A stretch of 24,721 nucleotides of DNA from the NCBI GenBank assembly GCA_016839245.1, contig JAEOUN010000069.1, positions 1 through 24,721 of the forward strand. Direction: 5' to 3'. A model generated the notes under the pieces. It did no database searches, was not told the DNA's origin, and was given only the letters and a program-made list of their open reading frames with translations. This document shows, in pieces, positions 3,000 to 19,666 of this stretch. Position 1 is the first letter of the stretch. Each line of letters starts with the position of its first letter. A program made the translations under genes and the position numbers. This DNA is from Candidatus Thorarchaeota archaeon. Its GTDB lineage: Archaea; Asgardarchaeota; Thorarchaeia; Thorarchaeales; Thorarchaeaceae.

Positions 3000-5012
3000 A
3001 TGAAATCGCTTGCACATAATGGCATTCTTGTCTTAGAACCACAACCTGCTCAAGGTCTCAAAATAATTGCTAGAGGGCAGGAGATTGTCTTTTCACAGTT
3101 GCAAGAAGAGATGGCTATTGCTTGGGTTCGAAAACTGGGTACACCTTATGTAGAAGATCCCGTTTTTGCAGCGAATTTCATGATGGACTTTAGTAAGGCA
3201 TTGGGTATTGATCCTGTACTGCAAGTGGATGAAATTGATTTTTCTGAAGTAATTCAAGTTGTAGAAGAAGAACGTGCAACAAAAGAGGACATGACCCCTG
3301 AAGAAAAGAAGGTTCAGCGGGAACAGAGGAAGCTCCTTCGTGACAGCCTCAAAGAAAAATATGGCTATGCCTTAGTTGATGGTGAGCGGATGGAGCTAGG
3401 AAATTATCAGACAGAGCCTTCTGGAATATTCATGGGGCGAGGGCAGCATCCCCTGAGAGGCAAATGGAAACAAGGTGCAACAAAGAAAGACATCACTTTG
3501 AACATCGACCCTGAGGCTGCTAGACAGCTAGAGGGCGAGTGGAAGGAATTAATTTGGGCTCCTGAAACCATGTGGATTGCAAAGTGGACTGATGAGCTCA
3601 CTGGGAAGGTCAAATACATCTGGCTCCATGATAGCACACCAATTAAACAAGAACGTGAGGCCGCGAAATTCGATAAAGCTCTGAAAGTCGAAAAGAGAAT
3701 AGATGATATTCGAGCTCACATCATGGAAGGTCTGAACTCAGAAAAACCACAGATTCGAATGGTAGCAGCTGCATGCTATCTCATAGACAATCTAAGCTTA
3801 CGTGTCGGAGATGAAAAGGATCCTGACGAGGCTGACACGGTAGGCGCTACAACTCTTCGAGCTGAGCATCTCACATTCAAAAAAGACTCGATTGTATTTG
3901 ATTTTCTTGGAAAAGATAGTGTCCCCTGGCATAAGGAAATTCAACCCGATCCCGATGTATACAGAGTTTTGAAAGAATTATATGAGAATGCCTTAGGACG
4001 AATTGCATCCTTTAAGGCAAGGACGGCTAAAAAGACAAAAGCTGATCCGAAGAAACTAGCTCAAATCTTTCCAAGTATCAATAGTACTCATGTGAACCGA
4101 TTTCTAAGTGAGGTGTACCCGGAGCTCACTGCAAAGGTGTTTAGAACTTATCATGCTACAACTATCATGCGTGATGAGCTAAAACAGAGTAGGGCAAAGA
4201 AGACTGATCCAGAGTTTATCAAGAAGGAGGCTTTTAAACGGGCCAATCTAGAAGTGGCTCGAGTAATGAATCATACAAAACAAGCTCCCAAAGGTTGGAG
4301 CAAGAGTGCGAATAGATATCAGGAACGCATTAAGAAGGCTGAGAAACGGGTGCAGAAGACTAAGGGACAGCTGAAAGAGAGTCAAGTACGTCTAAAGAAG
4401 ATCAAGAAGAAAGAGTCCGATACAAAACTCAAGAAACAAGAGTTGATAATGAAGCGAAAGGCGACAGTTGAAAGTTACAAGAACTCTGTCACGACTTGGC
4501 GAGAAAAACGTGACAGGGCTAAGGTTGCTTGGGATAATGCTCGAGATCAGAAGAGTCGGACAAGAGCTAGTAAACGAAAAGGAAAGACAACGAAAAAAGA
4601 GCGACTTGAGTCAGCTCAAGAACGTATTGACCGCACGTATAAGGCACTTGACAACGCTGAAGCAGGGCTATCAAATGCTAGAGACCGATATCAAAAGAGC
4701 AAAGAGTCCTTGGAAAAGATGCAAGAATCATTTAACAAGTGGAAAGAAATCTCTGCAAAACGGATGGCTATTGCAGAGAGAGCTGTTGCAACGCTAAAAG
4801 AACGGGTCAAGAAGGCTGAGGAAGCTAAACAAAAAATTGAGGTCGACTTTGCTCTTGCAAAAGATAGTCGTACATGGAATCTTGGAACTTCGCTCAAATC
4901 GTATATCCATCCAAAGGTTGTCTATAACTGGTCACAAAGAGTCGATTATGAGTGGCGGAATGTGTATAGTACGACTTTACAAAGGAAGTTTGAAGGCTGG
5001 ATTGACCATTAA
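3000..5012 (+). CDS. Eukaryotic-type DNA topoisomerase IB
   Basis: 670 residues. The enzyme nicks one DNA strand through a 3'-phosphotyrosine and relaxes supercoils. The catalytic set of human TOP1 is visible: R268 in LSLRVGDEK, K305 in FLGKDS, R382 in FRTYHATT, the NH pair at 424-425 in MNHTKQAP (His position), and the nucleophile Y635 in LGTSLKSYIHP. The N-terminal cap/DNA-binding region is about 1-230 and the core about 231-435. A very long basic, Lys/Glu/Arg-rich coiled-coil linker (about 436-615) separates the core from the tyrosine segment. GAGGT lies six bases before the ATG. In archaea this family is known mainly from the Thaumarchaeota/Aigarchaeota/Bathyarchaeota and some Asgard lineages. 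The gene ends directly against the convergent ArsC gene. Confidence 0.95.
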   Translation: MKSLAHNGILVLEPQPAQGLKIIARGQEIVFSQLQEEMAIAWVRKLGTPYVEDPVFAANFMMDFSKALGIDPVLQVDEIDFSEVIQVVEEERATKEDMTPEEKKVQREQRKLLRDSLKEKYGYALVDGERMELGNYQTEPSGIFMGRGQHPLRGKWKQGATKKDITLNIDPEAARQLEGEWKELIWAPETMWIAKWTDELTGKVKYIWLHDSTPIKQEREAAKFDKALKVEKRIDDIRAHIMEGLNSEKPQIRMVAAACYLIDNLSLRVGDEKDPDEADTVGATTLRAEHLTFKKDSIVFDFLGKDSVPWHKEIQPDPDVYRVLKELYENALGRIASFKARTAKKTKADPKKLAQIFPSINSTHVNRFLSEVYPELTAKVFRTYHATTIMRDELKQSRAKKTDPEFIKKEAFKRANLEVARVMNHTKQAPKGWSKSANRYQERIKKAEKRVQKTKGQLKESQVRLKKIKKKESDTKLKKQELIMKRKATVESYKNSVTTWREKRDRAKVAWDNARDQKSRTRASKRKGKTTKKERLESAQERIDRTYKALDNAEAGLSNARDRYQKSKESLEKMQESFNKWKEISAKRMAIAERAVATLKERVKKAEEAKQKIEVDFALAKDSRTWNLGTSLKSYIHPKVVYNWSQRVDYEWRNVYSTTLQRKFEGWIDH

Positions 5013-10015: not shown

Positions 10016-10152
10016 TGGTGCGCTCGCCGGGACTCGAATTCCCGACCACGTTCGAAACTTGAACGCAGTTCCCGGTTCCCGACCGCAACCGAATTGGATG
10101 CGATTGCCGGATCCGTGGCAGGGATCCATCATAGCCCCTAGACAACGAGCGC
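10016..10152 (-). tRNA. tRNA-Gly(GCC) with two non-canonical introns and a 5-nt middle exon
   Basis: Acceptor GCGCTCG/CGAGCGC, D arm starting GTCTAG, anticodon stem GATCC/GGATC around loop CTGCCAC, variable CGGC, T stem CCGGG/CCCGG around TTCGAGT, discriminator A and encoded CCA. Exons are 10106-10152, 10071-10075 and 10016-10038. Intron 1 (10076-10105, 30 nt) lies at 48/49; intron 2 (10039-10070, 32 nt) at 53/54. Intron 1 has a bulge-helix-bulge with central helix TCCG/CGGG and bulges GCA and AAC. Intron 2 has bulges GGA and AAT with central helix ACCG/CGGG, which becomes the fully paired CCCG/CGGG only after intron 1 is removed. The mature tRNA is 75 nt. There is no intron in the anticodon loop. 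Anticodon call certain; splice sites inferred from the mature fold. Confidence 0.92.
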
Positions 10153-10178: not shown

Positions 10179-10185
10179 TTAAAAA
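10179..10185 (-). promoter_or_regulatory. TATA-type box of tRNA-Gly(GCC)
   Basis: TTTTTAA on the minus strand lies 26 bases before the first tRNA base. The same box precedes tRNA-Val at nearly the same distance, which supports both. Confidence 0.6.
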
Positions 10186-10213
10186 GTTTGTCAAAAGCTC
10201 AGAGAAATCATAG

Positions 10214-11890: not shown

Positions 11891-12607
11891 ATGGCTATAG
11901 AACACCATGATCTAGAGTCACTGAAGATGGAGATAATTCGAGGAATTTATGAGCAGCGGATGATTCTTACTTCGGTACGAGACCGTCCTGAGGGTTGGAT
12001 ATTACATTCAGGTATATGGAGCCCGTTCTATATTCAACTACGTGAACTATGTTCGCATCCAGAGATTTTGGGAAAGGTTGGGAAGGCTCTCTCAATTCTA
12101 CTCAAAGAACAAGCACCTGATGTCAATAGACTTGTTGGGATTGCATTTGCTGGTGTACCTATTGCTACATCGGTATCTCTTGAGTCAGGTATTCCTGCAT
12201 GTCACACACGCAAAATCCTCGGAGTACGAACTGAGGCTGAAATGCATGAAGCAATTGGGAAATATGGTCAGCATTCATTCCTCGAAGGTATCATTGAGGA
12301 TGATGATGTTCTATGTCTTGTTGACGATTTGGTTACAGGTATGGAGAGTAAGGTGGTTGCACGAGAGCAGGTACTTGCAGAGATTGATAAACGTGGATTA
12401 TCCGGTGTAAGATGTGATGATATAGCTGTCATCATCGACCGAAACCAAGGCGCACAAAAACGTGCACGGGAGTTGAATCTTCAATTGCATTATCTGATCA
12501 ACATAGTTGATGATGGACTTAGAATGCTAAAGGGTGTAATGACGCGAGAAGAACATGCAATCGTATCTGACTATCTCAAGGATCCAGAAGGATTCAAGAA
12601 ACCCTAA
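11891..12607 (+). CDS. Orotate phosphoribosyltransferase-like protein
   Basis: 238 residues from ATG 11891 with GGTGA nine bases upstream; GTG 11882 would add three. HSGIWSPFYIQLREL matches the orotate phosphoribosyltransferase N-terminus, HTRK the basic substrate loop, and VLCLVDDLVTGMES occupies the PRPP-binding loop. The loop departs from the usual DD-x-x-T-T/A-G-x-S/T: the conserved glycine is replaced (TGMES), and the usual Asp of the IDLR segment is Gln. It may therefore be a divergent pyrimidine enzyme, a different base-salvage enzyme or a regulator. No other pyrimidine gene is adjacent. The ferritin-like pair follows 58 bases downstream on the same strand. Confidence 0.78.
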   Translation: MAIEHHDLESLKMEIIRGIYEQRMILTSVRDRPEGWILHSGIWSPFYIQLRELCSHPEILGKVGKALSILLKEQAPDVNRLVGIAFAGVPIATSVSLESGIPACHTRKILGVRTEAEMHEAIGKYGQHSFLEGIIEDDDVLCLVDDLVTGMESKVVAREQVLAEIDKRGLSGVRCDDIAVIIDRNQGAQKRARELNLQLHYLINIVDDGLRMLKGVMTREEHAIVSDYLKDPEGFKKP

Positions 12608-12665
12608 CTCTGTAATATTCATTACAGAAACTGATTTCTTTGGTAATGAATATCTTTTCAATCCT

Positions 12666-13118
12666 ATGACAGCTAAGAATCCTCTTGAGAATCTATTGAA
12701 CCTTGCCTTGAAGATGTCCCGCAAGAACTACGAGTATTATGAAACAACAGCTAATAGCGTAGAAACACCCAAGGTAAAAGCACTCCTCAGAGTCCTAGCT
12801 GATACTGAGCGTGATTTAATTATCGAGATACAGGATATGATCGTCACGGGAGTACTGAATGAAATTGAAGCAATGGGAAAAATTGAAGTTGGTGATGATC
12901 CTCCCGATGACACTCCTTTTGCTCCTGAACGAAATGATACAGACCCTCGTATTTTTGTATGTAATAAGGCATTAGAACAGGAGATGAAGGGATATACATT
13001 CTATCTCTCTATCGCTGCACGAGCAAAATCTGAACTGGTAAGTCGCGTGTTTGAATATCTTGCATTTATCAAATCGCAGCAAATTGAACATATTCGAAAG
13101 GTCTGCAGTACTTTTTAG
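12666..13118 (+). CDS. Ferritin-like (rubrerythrin-related) four-helix protein, copy 1
   Basis: 150 residues from ATG 12666; the frame is open upstream into the phosphoribosyltransferase gene, but the alignment with copy 2 begins near this Met. Four helices are apparent: YEYYETTANSVETPKVKALL, LADTERDLIIEIQDM, NKALEQEMKGYTFYLSI and FEYLAFIKSQQIEHIRKV. This is the rubrerythrin/ferritin pattern, in which Glu and ExxH residues bind a di-iron centre. Only part of that set is present: the second helix lacks the His of ExxH, while the fourth keeps IEHI. There is no rubredoxin domain. The iron-binding role is uncertain. Confidence 0.7.
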   Translation: MTAKNPLENLLNLALKMSRKNYEYYETTANSVETPKVKALLRVLADTERDLIIEIQDMIVTGVLNEIEAMGKIEVGDDPPDDTPFAPERNDTDPRIFVCNKALEQEMKGYTFYLSIAARAKSELVSRVFEYLAFIKSQQIEHIRKVCSTF

Positions 13119-13170: not shown

Positions 13171-13644
13171 ATGACAACGAAGAGTTCTCTCCAAAGAATG
13201 TTACAAGTTGCCCTCACTACCTCCGCAAATCATTATGATTTCTATCTCAAGGCAGCTAATGCAGTGGAGACGCCGGTAGTCAAGGCACTTCTTATGGTCT
13301 TAGCTGAAACTGAAGGTGAATTAATAGAGAGAATTCGTCTTATGATGTCCACTGGTGTCTTGGATGCAATCGAAGAGGTTGCCAAAGATACCTTTTCACT
13401 ACAAGAACCAAATCCTACTCCTTTCGGAATGGATCGAACTCCTTTCGCGAAAGCAAATCCTGATACAGACCCTAGACTCTTTATCTGCAACCGAGCTCTT
13501 GAGATGGAGTTCAAAGGTTTCACCTTCTACAGTTCAATCTCCTCACGAGCGAAGTCAGAGCTTATGAGGCGTCTATACGAGTACCTTGCCTTTATCAAAT
13601 CGAGACAAATAGAGAAGATTCGTAAAGTCTGTGAAACCTTCTAG
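13171..13644 (+). CDS. Ferritin-like (rubrerythrin-related) four-helix protein, copy 2
   Basis: 157 residues, a tandem paralog of the gene 52 bases upstream. The two share ANAVETP/ANSVETP, VKALL, the DTDPR-hydrophobic-C-N segment, KGFTFY/KGYTFY and YLAFIKS. It differs by an extra central loop of about 10 residues (around 80-95), and the last His (IEHI in copy 1) is Lys (IEKI), so a di-iron site is even less complete. A heterodimer of one more complete and one degenerate subunit is possible. No Shine-Dalgarno is evident before the ATG. Confidence 0.7.
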   Translation: MTTKSSLQRMLQVALTTSANHYDFYLKAANAVETPVVKALLMVLAETEGELIERIRLMMSTGVLDAIEEVAKDTFSLQEPNPTPFGMDRTPFAKANPDTDPRLFICNRALEMEFKGFTFYSSISSRAKSELMRRLYEYLAFIKSRQIEKIRKVCETF

Positions 13645-16126: not shown

Positions 16127-16160
16127 ATGATGTCGCTAATCAACAGTCTAACGACATCAT
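16127..16160 (-). terminator. 9-bp hairpin at the 3' end of the STAND/TPR gene
   Basis: ATGATGTCG (16127-16135) pairs perfectly with CGACATCAT (16152-16160) around a 16-base loop. The stem includes the gene's stop codon. No T-run follows on the minus strand, so it may protect the mRNA end rather than terminate transcription. Confidence 0.3.
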
Positions 16161-19100
16161 CCTAGAAGGTTTATTCTCTCTCTAGCCTGGTCCTGAGTAA
16201 GCCCAACAAAGTCAATCAGAAACGATTCCGTTTCAATCCTAAGATGCTCAAGATCCTCGGTGTATGCGATGCTTGACATATGCGAGAGATTAGTGAGAAT
16301 AGAGAGTGCCTCTATGTATGTGGCTTCTGCTTCAGTAGTTCTTCCTGTTTCGCGAAACAGTCTAGCTACCCTGACTAGTGTGTGTACTTTTGCTGGCTTG
16401 AACAATTGAGAGCTCTTCATCTGTTTGTTATCATATAGTATTAGTGCTGAAGATAAGCATCGTTCTGCATCTTCTAATCTTCTCATTTGCAAGTACAGAT
16501 TACCCATATCACTCAATGTTTCTGCTAATTCATCATTGAACATACTAGGAGCTCCTTTAGTCAGTGTTTCCAAGTTTTCCAAAGACTCTGAAAACCTCTT
16601 CTCCGCATCTTCAAAACGACTCGTTTCTGAATATAGATTTCCAAGGTTGCTCAAAACTTTGGTGACTTTATCGAGAAAAGAATGAGGGGAGTATGAGGTC
16701 AACGCTTGGAATATTTCAAGTGCTTCCTCAAACTCCTTTTCAGACTCTTCAAATTTCTTCATCTTAATGTGCAGTTTCGCAATCCTGTTCTGGCAATCTG
16801 CAATATGATGACGATGTAACCATAGTGGTGTTGTTGTGGAATTTCTGTGAATATCAAGCGCTTTATCATATGTTTCTTCAGCTTTGTCCCATCTCTTAGT
16901 TTCCACATAAAGATCCGCGAAACTAGTGAGTGTAGTAGCAACTTGGGTTTCAAAACAGACGGGGGCAAGATTAGCGACTTTTTCATATATTTCCAGTGCG
17001 CGTTCAAGGGCTTTCTCTGCTTGCTCGAATCTATTTATTTCTGTATAGAGGTACGCTAAATCACACAGAACCATTGCAATATTTGGCTCATACTGTCTTG
17101 GAGCATCTTCTGCTAATCCTTCATAGATATGTAATGACTTTTGGTACGAAAGTTCTGCTTCGTCAGTCTTCCAGATGTTATGATACAGATTTCCCAAATT
17201 GTGTAGTACCAAGGCAATTTCATCCTTATACACCTCGCTCGCGGATTCAGCCAGTTCTTCATAGATGCACATGCTCTCTCTGTAGATTTGCTCAGCTTCG
17301 TCTGGCCTATGTGTCGCTTCGAAAATTTTTCCTTGGCATCTCAAAGCATCTGCGAAATTGCCTTGGTGCAGTTCAGGTGTTGTTTTCATTAATTCTCTAT
17401 ACATTAGCAAAGCTTTGTTGATGTGATCTTCAGCATTCTTTAAATCACATATACCCAAGAATAGTACACTTAGACTGTAATTCGCCATGGCAACATCGGA
17501 ACGATGCATCTCTGGATATTCTATGGCGAGTTTTTCATATATTCTTAATGATTCCTTAAGTGCGTTCTCAGCTTCATTCAGCCTACCAGTATCATTGTAC
17601 AGAAGACCGAGATTATTTAGAACCATTGCCACATCACAGAGATATAGTTTGGGTGAGGTACTTGCAAGTTCTTTATAGATTTCCAGTGCTTCTTCATAAG
17701 CTCTCTCTGCTTCATCTGGTTCACAGTTGTCCGAATAGAGGATGGCAAGATTGTTCAGAACTTTTCCAACATCAGTAAGATACTGACCTAAATCATTTTG
17801 TGCAAGTTTCTTATACAGTAACAGAGCCCCTTTATATGCTGATAGAGCCTGCGCTGGTTTGTTCATATCTGAAACAAGAATGGCAAGATGGTTGAGAGTC
17901 TTTGCTATTTCGAGGGAGTATGTTCCTGGCTCTTCCGTTTCTAGTTCTGTAAGGAGATTTAATGCTACGTGATAACTCTCTTCTGCTTGCTTTGGCCTGA
18001 ATGTGTCTGAATATAAGCAGCCAAAAGTATCATACATAAGTGCTATGTAAAGTCTTTTCCGACCCAGCTCTCGACCTGAACGACTATGGTGAAACGAGGA
18101 GGCGAATGTCAGAAACGCTTCTGCTTCACTTGGCTTTCCGAGACTGTAACTTACTAGACCCATGAATGTTTCACGAAGTGCTTTTCCTTCTATCGATTCG
18201 AACTCTACACCTTTGAGTAAATCCAAAACATCAGAATATTGATCGACAGTCACAGCTGCGTTTGTCAATTTGTACGCTGTATCATACAATTCTTGAATAG
18301 CATTTTCTTCATTCAGGATTGCAGAGGCTGAAATGGCCATACCTTGCAATATTGGTCTATTCTCTAACTCCGCGACTCTCAAGAGGTTGTTTCTCAGCTC
18401 TTCTATGATTGTGTTCTTCTTCCTGCCAAGCTCTGAGATAGCTAATGTTCTCGCCAAATCGTGCATTTCCCACCACTGTTCATCAAGTGGAGTTACAAAG
18501 CTAAGTCTTGTCAGTGCAAACCACTCAGGACCTTTGAGGTCAGGATAAAGGATTTGTAAAGTATCCTTGTTGAAGAATGGTAAAAGTGCGGCAAAATCAA
18601 TCACACGTGTAAGACTCCCAACTCGATCAAAGAGAATATTCCAAACTTTCACCCTTGTTTCTTCAAGAGAGTCTGCTTCCAAGCCCCTTACAGTTTCTAA
18701 TGTTAGTCCCTTCTTGGTCACAGCGCTACAAATAAGATCCAGCAGGAAAGGGTGTTTCTGACTGATATCTATGAGTAACTTCTGAAGATCTAAATCTCCG
18801 ACCTTGTTGTGTTCCAGAAGTTCTTTACAGCCATCATCATCAAATTCATTAATCCGCATCTGTTCCATCTTTATCAACGAGCACCACTCCTCGTCGAAAG
18901 ATTCTCTTCCGGCTGTGACTCCTACACAGTCAACAAGTTTTGACAGGAATATTTGCCACAACTCTGCTTCATTCACTTTTTTATCATCAATAGTCAATAG
19001 TGGAATATCCCTGTTCACAGTCTCGTAACGATCGAGCATCACAATGAGTGGGCGACATTTGTCCTTTGGACGACTGTTGAAGTCATCTTCTAGTGCTTTC

Positions 19101-19666
19101 AGGAAGAGATTCATTGCATTGGATATATCATCAAACAGATTCCGGACCATCTCCTCAGTGAAGTCATCACCAAGGTAGGTTTCCAGCCAGTTTCCAAGAC
19201 TACCTGTTCTCTGTTTCAGAATCTCCTTGAGATGTATTCCAAGTTTTCTCAGCCTATCCGCTTGGTCTACGAAAGATCCTATGACCGGGACCAGTGTGAC
19301 AGTTTGCAATACCCAATCCTTTCCGTCTTTCGCAGCTGGTTCATATCGATTAATGGATCGTACCTTTATCTCCCAGAGTGTATCAAAACGAGGCAATTTT
19401 ATGTCTAGTCGGTTGAACTCTGATGCTAAACGTTCTAGTCGTGCATAGAAATCACCATGGATCTTGCAGTCAATCAAGAGTGAGTTACTATATTCTTTTT
19501 TCCAGTGTTTTAGAAGAGTAGATTTACCAATTCCACCGACTCCATGGATGTGAATTAAGACATTAGAGTTCGAACACGAATTTAAAGCTTCAATCATCCA
19601 TTTCAGCCATTCGTTTCTGTCAACACATTTCTCTTCTAAAGCCCCTACTCCTTCCAACGCATACAC
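16157..19666 (-). CDS. STAND (NB-ARC type) ATPase with long TPR array
   Basis: 1169 residues. Walker A GVGGIGKST is at 42-50, Walker B LIVMLD at 207-212, a sensor-like TAGRE at 251-255, and a winged-helix region ends in WWEMHDLAR with MHD at 401-403. This is the NB-ARC order of signal-transduction ATPases, in which MHD reads the nucleotide. From about 490 to 1150 the protein is tetratricopeptide repeats of about 42 residues, with recurring NLG/LYSDTGR/DEAE and YEELA motifs as in kinesin-light-chain-type TPRs. These proteins typically switch from ADP-bound monomer to ATP-bound oligomer when the repeats sense a ligand. No effector domain is present at either end, so a partner may be needed. GGTG lies just before the ATG. 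It is the sole gene of a tRNA-bounded segment, which suggests a horizontally moved defence or signalling module. Confidence 0.9.
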   Translation of the reverse strand: MYALEGVGALEEKCVDRNEWLKWMIEALNSCSNSNVLIHIHGVGGIGKSTLLKHWKKEYSNSLLIDCKIHGDFYARLERLASEFNRLDIKLPRFDTLWEIKVRSINRYEPAAKDGKDWVLQTVTLVPVIGSFVDQADRLRKLGIHLKEILKQRTGSLGNWLETYLGDDFTEEMVRNLFDDISNAMNLFLKALEDDFNSRPKDKCRPLIVMLDRYETVNRDIPLLTIDDKKVNEAELWQIFLSKLVDCVGVTAGRESFDEEWCSLIKMEQMRINEFDDDGCKELLEHNKVGDLDLQKLLIDISQKHPFLLDLICSAVTKKGLTLETVRGLEADSLEETRVKVWNILFDRVGSLTRVIDFAALLPFFNKDTLQILYPDLKGPEWFALTRLSFVTPLDEQWWEMHDLARTLAISELGRKKNTIIEELRNNLLRVAELENRPILQGMAISASAILNEENAIQELYDTAYKLTNAAVTVDQYSDVLDLLKGVEFESIEGKALRETFMGLVSYSLGKPSEAEAFLTFASSFHHSRSGRELGRKRLYIALMYDTFGCLYSDTFRPKQAEESYHVALNLLTELETEEPGTYSLEIAKTLNHLAILVSDMNKPAQALSAYKGALLLYKKLAQNDLGQYLTDVGKVLNNLAILYSDNCEPDEAERAYEEALEIYKELASTSPKLYLCDVAMVLNNLGLLYNDTGRLNEAENALKESLRIYEKLAIEYPEMHRSDVAMANYSLSVLFLGICDLKNAEDHINKALLMYRELMKTTPELHQGNFADALRCQGKIFEATHRPDEAEQIYRESMCIYEELAESASEVYKDEIALVLHNLGNLYHNIWKTDEAELSYQKSLHIYEGLAEDAPRQYEPNIAMVLCDLAYLYTEINRFEQAEKALERALEIYEKVANLAPVCFETQVATTLTSFADLYVETKRWDKAEETYDKALDIHRNSTTTPLWLHRHHIADCQNRIAKLHIKMKKFEESEKEFEEALEIFQALTSYSPHSFLDKVTKVLSNLGNLYSETSRFEDAEKRFSESLENLETLTKGAPSMFNDELAETLSDMGNLYLQMRRLEDAERCLSSALILYDNKQMKSSQLFKPAKVHTLVRVARLFRETGRTTEAEATYIEALSILTNLSHMSSIAYTEDLEHLRIETESFLIDFVGLTQDQARERINLLG

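Follow-up and report, generated by a model that had tools for sequence, protein, structure and literature searches.

A tRNA-Gly(GCC) gene of a Candidatus Thorarchaeota archaeon with two tightly coupled introns around a 5-nt exon

A tRNA-Gly(GCC) gene with a micro-exon between two introns

The minus strand of the window (the whole 24,721-nt stretch of DNA analyzed here) encodes, from position 10152 to position 10016, a tRNA-Gly(GCC) gene of 137 nt that is interrupted by two introns and that, with its encoded CCA, gives a mature form of 75 nt. Exon 1 (10106 to 10152; 47 nt) supplies tRNA positions 1 to 48 and includes the anticodon loop CTGCCAC; since the variable loop, CGGC, has no position 47, the intron that follows is numbered 48/49. 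This intron 1 (10076 to 10105; 30 nt; AATCGC...GGTCGGGAA) is separated from intron 2 at 53/54 (10039 to 10070; 32 nt; AACTGC...GGTCGGGAA) by a micro-exon of 5 nt, CCGGG (10071 to 10075), which makes up positions 49 to 53, the 5' strand of the T stem. Exon 3 (10016 to 10038) then carries positions 54 to 76 (TTCGAGT CCCGG CGAGCGC ACCA). Upstream on the same strand we read a TATA-like element, CTTTTTAA (10179 to 10186), which we take to be a candidate promoter of the gene; its AAACTTTTTAAC also precedes several tRNA-Gly orthologues.

ARAGORN called no tRNA in the window and none in the unspliced precursor, and an Rfam scan of the window (E ≤ 1) returned no tRNA, its sole match being a sub-threshold snoRNA. 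The failure of a standard tRNA finder on this gene is a warning for annotation. Removal of both introns in silico gives a canonical tRNA, as judged from the sequence of orthologues and from ARAGORN, which calls the spliced 75-mer as tRNA-Gly(gcc); when CCGGG is skipped in the spliced form, the program calls nothing. The original prediction had placed introns of 30 and 32 nt at 48/49 and 53/54 around CCGGG, an arrangement borne out by the spliced call, the orthologues, and the relatives described below, and it had correctly noted that the two introns share their 3'-terminal sequence in the window gene. A split or permuted tRNA gene was considered for the window and rejected, the three exons being contiguous and in order from 10152 to 10016.

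Elsewhere in the window, a topoisomerase IB gene (3000 to 5012) has 13 matching loci, all from Candidatus Thorarchaeota, with a best identity of 81%. An open reading frame (ORF) of 1,169 aa on the minus strand (16157 to 19666), whose translation was judged by eye, has an NTPase domain-like region followed by many TPR-like repeats. Two adjacent ORFs (12555 to 13118 and 13171 to 13644) have clearly similar translations, an apparent tandem duplication.

Intron states of orthologous genes in Thorarchaeia

The comparisons rest on genomes of relatives, the window gene itself being read from its stretch only. A search pattern spanning the D loop through the anticodon loop identified orthologues in 39 of 47 Thorarchaeia genomes, to which two from inspected loci (G022 and G038) were added for a total of 41. 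Seven of these genomes (G003, G013, G021, G034, G037, G045, and G046) have both T-arm introns at the same positions, 17 have an intact gene with a 37/38 intron, 14 have neither the T-arm pair nor a 37/38 intron (some of these with D-arm or T-loop introns), and 3 (G005, G010, and G035) have a broken or degenerate tRNA-Gly. Two tRNA-Gly genes (L092 in G014 and L093 in G015) carry an additional intron inside the T loop. Across the 41 genomes, the T-arm introns are either both present or both absent, never single, and no gene combines the pair with a 37/38 intron. We do not claim a mutual exclusion of the two states (simple test, P = 0.006 for 39 genes), because only five independent contrasts are available and their median P is 0.125.

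Orthologues without T-arm introns (such as G012, G023, G024, and G026) read GGATCCGGC-CCGGG-TTCGAGT-CCCGG, which is the spliced sequence of the window gene, and match it exactly from position 39 to position 65. The comparison with relatives that had been proposed along with the prediction thus gave seven genomes that share both introns and intron-less orthologues that confirm the exon joints.

The neighbor genes of the window locus recur beside genes with the T-arm pair (G013, G021, and G034) and beside genes with the 37/38 intron (G008, G030, and G031), so the states vary at one locus; at least one of four neighbors was present at 23 of 37 locus rows, many of the loci being short. On a topoisomerase IB tree of 37 rows, in which G021, G031, and G035 are without such a protein and G046 covers only 11% of the columns, the T-arm pair undergoes at least six state changes. 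Sister groups of unlike state are the window plus G013 versus G001 plus G002, G034 versus G036, G037 versus G038, and G045/G046 versus G043. The window's intron 2 aligns 31/31 with that of both G003 and G037, despite topoisomerase identities to the window of 76% and 64%, respectively. Repeated loss of the T-arm pair or its exchange between lineages may account for this pattern.

Intron 1 lies within the splice signal of intron 2

In the eight genes with both introns (the window gene plus seven), the proposed helices comprise 208 cells, of which 99.5% pair, compared with 24 to 47% if the alignment is slid by one to three columns. Changes on both sides are seen at 6 of the 26 helix pairs, compared with 0 to 1 if slid; they fall on five of the nine inner pairs of intron 1 and on one inner pair of intron 2.

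A 4-bp central helix, 3-nt bulges, and an inner hairpin, the features of a bulge-helix-bulge (BHB) motif, are found in both introns, in the case of intron 2 only with intron 1 gone. The central helix of intron 1 pairs TCCG (10108 to 10111; positions 42 to 45), to which the anticodon stem lends its final two bases, with CGGG (10081 to 10078) through one U-G; in G045 the partner is CGGA, with a U-A pair. Its bulges are GC|A and AR|C, its inner hairpin has nine positions, of which one is a T-T mismatch in the gene of the window, and an outer helix is absent in all eight genes. The motif of intron 2 consists of CCCG/CGGG, the bulges GG|A and AA|T, nine inner pairs, and an outer helix that reaches 3 bp only after removal of intron 1, having one or two pairs before.

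This dependence stems from the placement of intron 1, which stands outside intron 2 itself and separates C48 from C49, both of which belong to the 5' strand of the central helix of intron 2, C48-C49-C50-G51. In the manner of nested, twintron-like introns, the splice signal of one is thus interrupted by the other. In the precursor, the 5' strand of that helix is ACCG in the window (10073 to 10076; partner CGGG, 10044 to 10041), and it is ACCG in four of the eight genes and GCCG in the other four. Intron 1 ends with base 10076, which splicing replaces with C48 (10106). Consequently the outermost pair is A-G or G-G in 8/8 precursors and C-G in 8/8 intermediates, and the predicted change from a mismatched ACCG/CGGG to a complete CCCG/CGGG upon loss of intron 1 can be read directly from the sequence.

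Folding favors removal of intron 1 first

We computed the probability of each motif (central helix plus three inner pairs) at 20, 37, and 50°C for unmodified RNA alone, without proteins, the D-arm intron of three of the eight genes having been taken out before folding. At 37°C, the probability of motif 2 rises from 0.0003 to 0.0058 in the precursor to 0.30 to 0.32 after removal of intron 1, a gain of 54- to 946-fold that is seen in 8/8 genes; the gain is 6- to 728-fold at 20°C and 155- to 831-fold at 50°C. Motif 1 has a probability of 0.008 to 0.059 in the precursor at 37°C and of 0.0003 to 0.041 if intron 2 is removed, so that taking out intron 2 first reduces it by 1.4- to 114-fold. In all eight precursors, motif 1 is more probable than motif 2 at 37 and 50°C; at 20°C this holds for only five, and the window, G045, and G046 show the reverse. 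The folding of precursor and intermediate that had been proposed as a check therefore upholds the gain of motif 2 in every gene, with a preference for intron 1 that at 20°C extends to only five of eight.

Substitutions at the last base of intron 1, made in silico in three genes, gave a mixed picture. With C at this position, motif 2 of the precursor increased 39- to 76-fold. With U, it fell to about 1e-6 or less, far below the value with the natural base; this drop is contrary to a simple pairing argument and is not explained by pairing alone.

As controls we used 12 further Asgard genes that carry a 53/54 intron, their 5' ends guessed from the acceptor stem. The six that seemingly have a single intron gave motif probabilities of 0.0055, 0.20, 4.8e-7, 0.0021, 5.4e-7, and 0.0025 (five of six at 0.0055 or below, two near 5e-7), and the other six ranged from 0.00018 to 0.45. 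As the controls often fold as poorly, a low motif probability does not mean that a site cannot be cut; such values occur in natural genes, weight can be given only to relative changes inside one gene, and the thermodynamic case for a strict order is weakened.

Removal of intron 1 first is nevertheless well supported as a preference in the computed fold, from which we infer that the same order probably holds in the cell. In the route that we propose, the motif of intron 1 (TCCG/CGGG plus the nine-position hairpin) would form without involving intron 2, the splicing endonuclease would excise intron 1, and ligation would join C48 to C49. With this joint made, intron 2 has its full CCCG/CGGG helix and its outer helix, and the endonuclease, which would thus remove both introns, would cut intron 2 after its completed motif forms. 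The position of intron 1 inside the splice signal of intron 2 favors this route; counting against it, the motif of intron 1 is itself without an outer helix in all eight genes and takes two anticodon-stem pairs.

The statement that intron 1 "must" leave first goes further than these results allow. It stands insofar as the BHB of intron 2 is complete only after loss of intron 1 in 8/8 genes, and it is undercut by the 20°C reversal in three of the eight genes, including the window gene, by the poor controls, and by the probable type of the endonuclease. PF01974 is present in 47/47 Thorarchaeia genomes, with two copies in 41. The catalytic residues of splicing endonuclease are Y, H, and K, and in G013 one PF01974 protein has YEKGPGIDH...K and the other is without the His. 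Two such proteins, one lacking the His, suggest an (alpha-beta)2-type enzyme in Thorarchaeia. According to the available part of PMC6379350, this type accepts relaxed motifs, with one known exception, and by analogy the Thorarchaeia enzyme may do so too.

Hence there might be no order at all, the endonuclease cutting both introns independently by accepting a 3-bp central helix with one mismatch, which would then be a by-product of the purine that usually closes archaeal introns. The two homologues in 41/47 genomes, the G013 pair with its one His-less member, the relaxed-motif cleavage described in the accessible text of PMC6379350, and the equally poor control motifs, which are presumably spliced, all agree with independent cutting. 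So does the predominance of A at the intron ends of the tRNA-Gly locus; a preference of bulges for purines may be the sole reason for the one that closes intron 1. Against it, motif 2 is stabilized by loss of intron 1 in 8/8 genes at three temperatures, and PMC8450103, in the part available, states that some close introns need one to be out before the second motif forms. We regard independent cutting as rather unlikely, though by a considerable way the most serious competitor.

An obligate order acting as quality control, in which prior removal of intron 1 prevents skipping of the micro-exon, is improbable. The shared intron ends, the similar stems, and the mismatch speak for it, and in G013 and G034 the stems of introns 1 and 2 are alike enough to pair at 9/9 positions. 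However, the mispaired motif needed for such skipping reaches a probability of only 1.6e-16 to 7.3e-11 in the eight precursors, which leaves little of the original suggestion that the shared ends invite skipping; moreover, the ends of introns 1 and 2 differ in the relatives, unlike in the window gene, three of eight genes reverse at 20°C, and single-intron controls have poor motifs. That the gene is decaying and nonfunctional, with the functional tRNA-Gly(GCC) located elsewhere, is very hard to credit: G006 does have a broken two-intron copy beside an intact gene of another type, and the rest of the window's own genome lies outside the comparison, but the mature sequence is intact, intron pairing is kept under substitution, and an anticodon-arm search of the seven two-intron genomes found no second GCC gene of the same sequence.

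The window gene is thus a real, conserved, and functional-looking gene of a known kind, with two introns that are unusually tightly coupled. Taken as a whole, it is likely to be a single-copy functional tRNA-Gly(GCC) gene with BHB introns in which a copy-like intron 1 sits in the signal of an ordinary intron 2, with splicing of intron 1 first being favored.

An opposite dependence in a relative

The tRNA-Gly(GCC) gene of G043 (L125/L199; contig C21, about 93822 to 93958) has introns at 37/38 and 40/41 that leave a 3-nt exon, CGG (positions 38 to 40), between them; the 40/41 boundary is the best BHB fit, and the sequence alone permits one base later, with an exon of 4 nt. The central helix of its second intron, GAAC/GTTT, takes GAA from the end of the first, and with the first intron gone, two of the four central pairs are left. 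At 37°C, removal of the first intron lowers the motif probability of the second from its precursor value of 0.0055 to 0.0004, and removal of the second raises that of the first from 1.7e-5 to 0.059. Because the second intron needs the end of the first, it should leave first, the reverse of the situation in the window; this case rests on one genome and one temperature.

Origin of intron 1

A covariance model of the two-intron region, run with strict filters at E ≤ 0.01, matched 20 of 227 Asgard genomes: the 7 two-intron genomes, a broken copy in G006 (these all at 6e-17 or better), and 12 weaker matches. The latter are further tRNA genes carrying a 53/54 intron, preceded by an uninterrupted CCCG in 12/12 and with CGGG opposite in 11/12. 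A second model, which covers the 53/54 intron and is based in part on these weaker-match genes, hit 65 of the 227 genomes at E ≤ 0.001, and 18 of the 21 loci inspected have a T arm with intact CCCG, the other 3 being misplaced and left unjudged. These widespread matches with intact CCCG indicate that intron 2 is of a common Asgard type and that intron 1 is the addition. One locus elsewhere (L209; G036:C1:286573-286663) is a probable tRNA-Asp with three introns, including one at 53/54, and short exons between them.

Intron 1 aligns to intron 2 of its own gene with a mean score of 13.2 and to intron 2 of the other genes with 12.3, compared with a mean of 3.2 (best single score, 13.0) against 16 other Asgard 53/54 introns. 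Of 2,000 hairpin-preserving shuffles, 0 to 37 matched the real score between introns 1 and 2. The target of intron 1, TCCGGC|C, resembles the native CCCGGG|, which makes copying into a look-alike site a simple origin. From these resemblances we infer that intron 1 probably arose as a copy of intron 2. Introns near 48/49 may also occur alone elsewhere: a model of intron 1 only gave weak matches in other tRNAs, and four of the seven inspected look like tRNA-Glu with an intron that ends just before the T stem. Viral contigs scanned for the exact pattern of intron 1, micro-exon, and intron 2 contained 0 such stretches, and so nothing indicates that viruses carry the two-intron allele.

A wider scenario of a nested pre-tRNA, in which the 53/54 intron copied itself 5 bases upstream and, with G043 included, coupled pairs evolved twice with opposite orders, the intron sets being swapped as alleles, is conceivable, and we offer it tentatively, at somewhat less than even odds.

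Broken copies and fragments near the locus

In G006 (contig C10; L127/L200), a broken tRNA-Gly with both T-arm introns has lost its 5' end and has an altered anticodon loop. It is adjoined by an intact gene that has introns in the D arm and at 37/38, and the contig also has three bare 3' fragments. A 484-aa ORF (L200, 6604 to 8058) that matched no Pfam family lies between the broken and intact genes, and no integrase family was found among three proteins of this cluster. Repeated tRNA-Gly 3' fragments, extending from the T arm to CCA (L014/L072, L080, L081, L088, L090, and L128 to L132), lie either close to the gene or on other contigs, as though the tRNA served as an integration site. Mobile DNA that swaps the 3' part of the gene was considered; the nearby fragments fit, but no integrase was identified, and we do not adopt it.

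In G010 (L124) and G035 (L122), the tRNA-Gly stops inside intron 1 or directly after position 48, and unrelated DNA follows; these breaks may reflect a split gene, a rearrangement, or an assembly fault. As they fall at or just past position 48, split tRNA genes were considered and are rejected for now, because G010 has no matching 3' half and assembly faults are as likely.

Comparison with known systems

If our reading is correct, the gene is a minimal natural system in which the product of one splicing reaction serves as the substrate signal for the following one, in an archaeal lineage near the eukaryotes. Natural relatives would be at hand for comparison, without introns, with only other introns, or with the opposite dependence. 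It would also be a concrete case of tRNA intron multiplication by copying into a neighboring look-alike site.

Archaeal pre-tRNAs with several BHB introns are known, in the literature available to us, from Thermoproteales (Pyrobaculum and Thermofilum) and from Asgard archaea (Atabeyarchaeia and Freyarchaeia), and the accessible part of PMC11291895 describes Asgard genomes with several introns in over half of the tRNA genes. Like the window gene, these carry two or three BHB introns each, at noncanonical sites. The arrangement described here differs in that intron 1 interrupts the splice signal of intron 2, with a 5-nt exon left between the two, and in that eight genes share it. Among the openly available passages searched, we found no tRNA exon of ≤5 nt between BHB introns and no tRNA intron inserted into the splice signal of another.

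The closest precedent is the description of tRNAscan-SE 2.0 (PMC8450103), whose available text says that close introns sometimes need one to be out before the second BHB forms and handles them by iterative splicing, a stepwise removal like that proposed here. It is a method statement that, in that text, names no gene, conservation, or measured dependence, whereas here the dependence is assigned to a single base pair together with the outer helix and traced over eight genes. The tRNA-Ile(UAU) of Cyanidioschyzon merolae, with introns at 12/13, 37/38, and 53/54, shares the 53/54 position, and RT-PCR experiments indicated that its D- and T-arm introns leave before the anticodon intron (PMC9602550, in the part accessible). 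Unlike in the window gene, these introns are far apart, one per arm, and no overlap of signals is described there. In Caldiarchaeum, tRNA-Thr(GGU) has gained introns at 24/25 and 45/46, and the available text of PMC3293823 proposes that a recombinase-bearing element was responsible. As here, the intron content of one locus varies among close relatives and tRNA fragments stand near mobile DNA; that account includes no micro-exon.

Transposition of tRNA introns in Thermoproteales (Fujishima 2010, as cited in the parts seen of PMC4090602 and PMC4033280) likewise yields very similar introns at different positions. There the copies are between different tRNAs, whereas in the window gene the movement was apparently from 53/54 to 48/49 in one gene. 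Related literature, drawn on in part, includes PMC4390854, PMC3218864, PMC3978253, PMC12397907, and PMC13149111.

Multi-intron archaeal tRNAs and the stepwise removal of close introns are therefore already known. What is added here is an intron 1 that resembles a copy of intron 2 placed in the splice signal of intron 2 itself, a 53/54 intron that is a common Asgard type, a T-arm pair that is present together or absent together, and, in G043, the opposite dependence.
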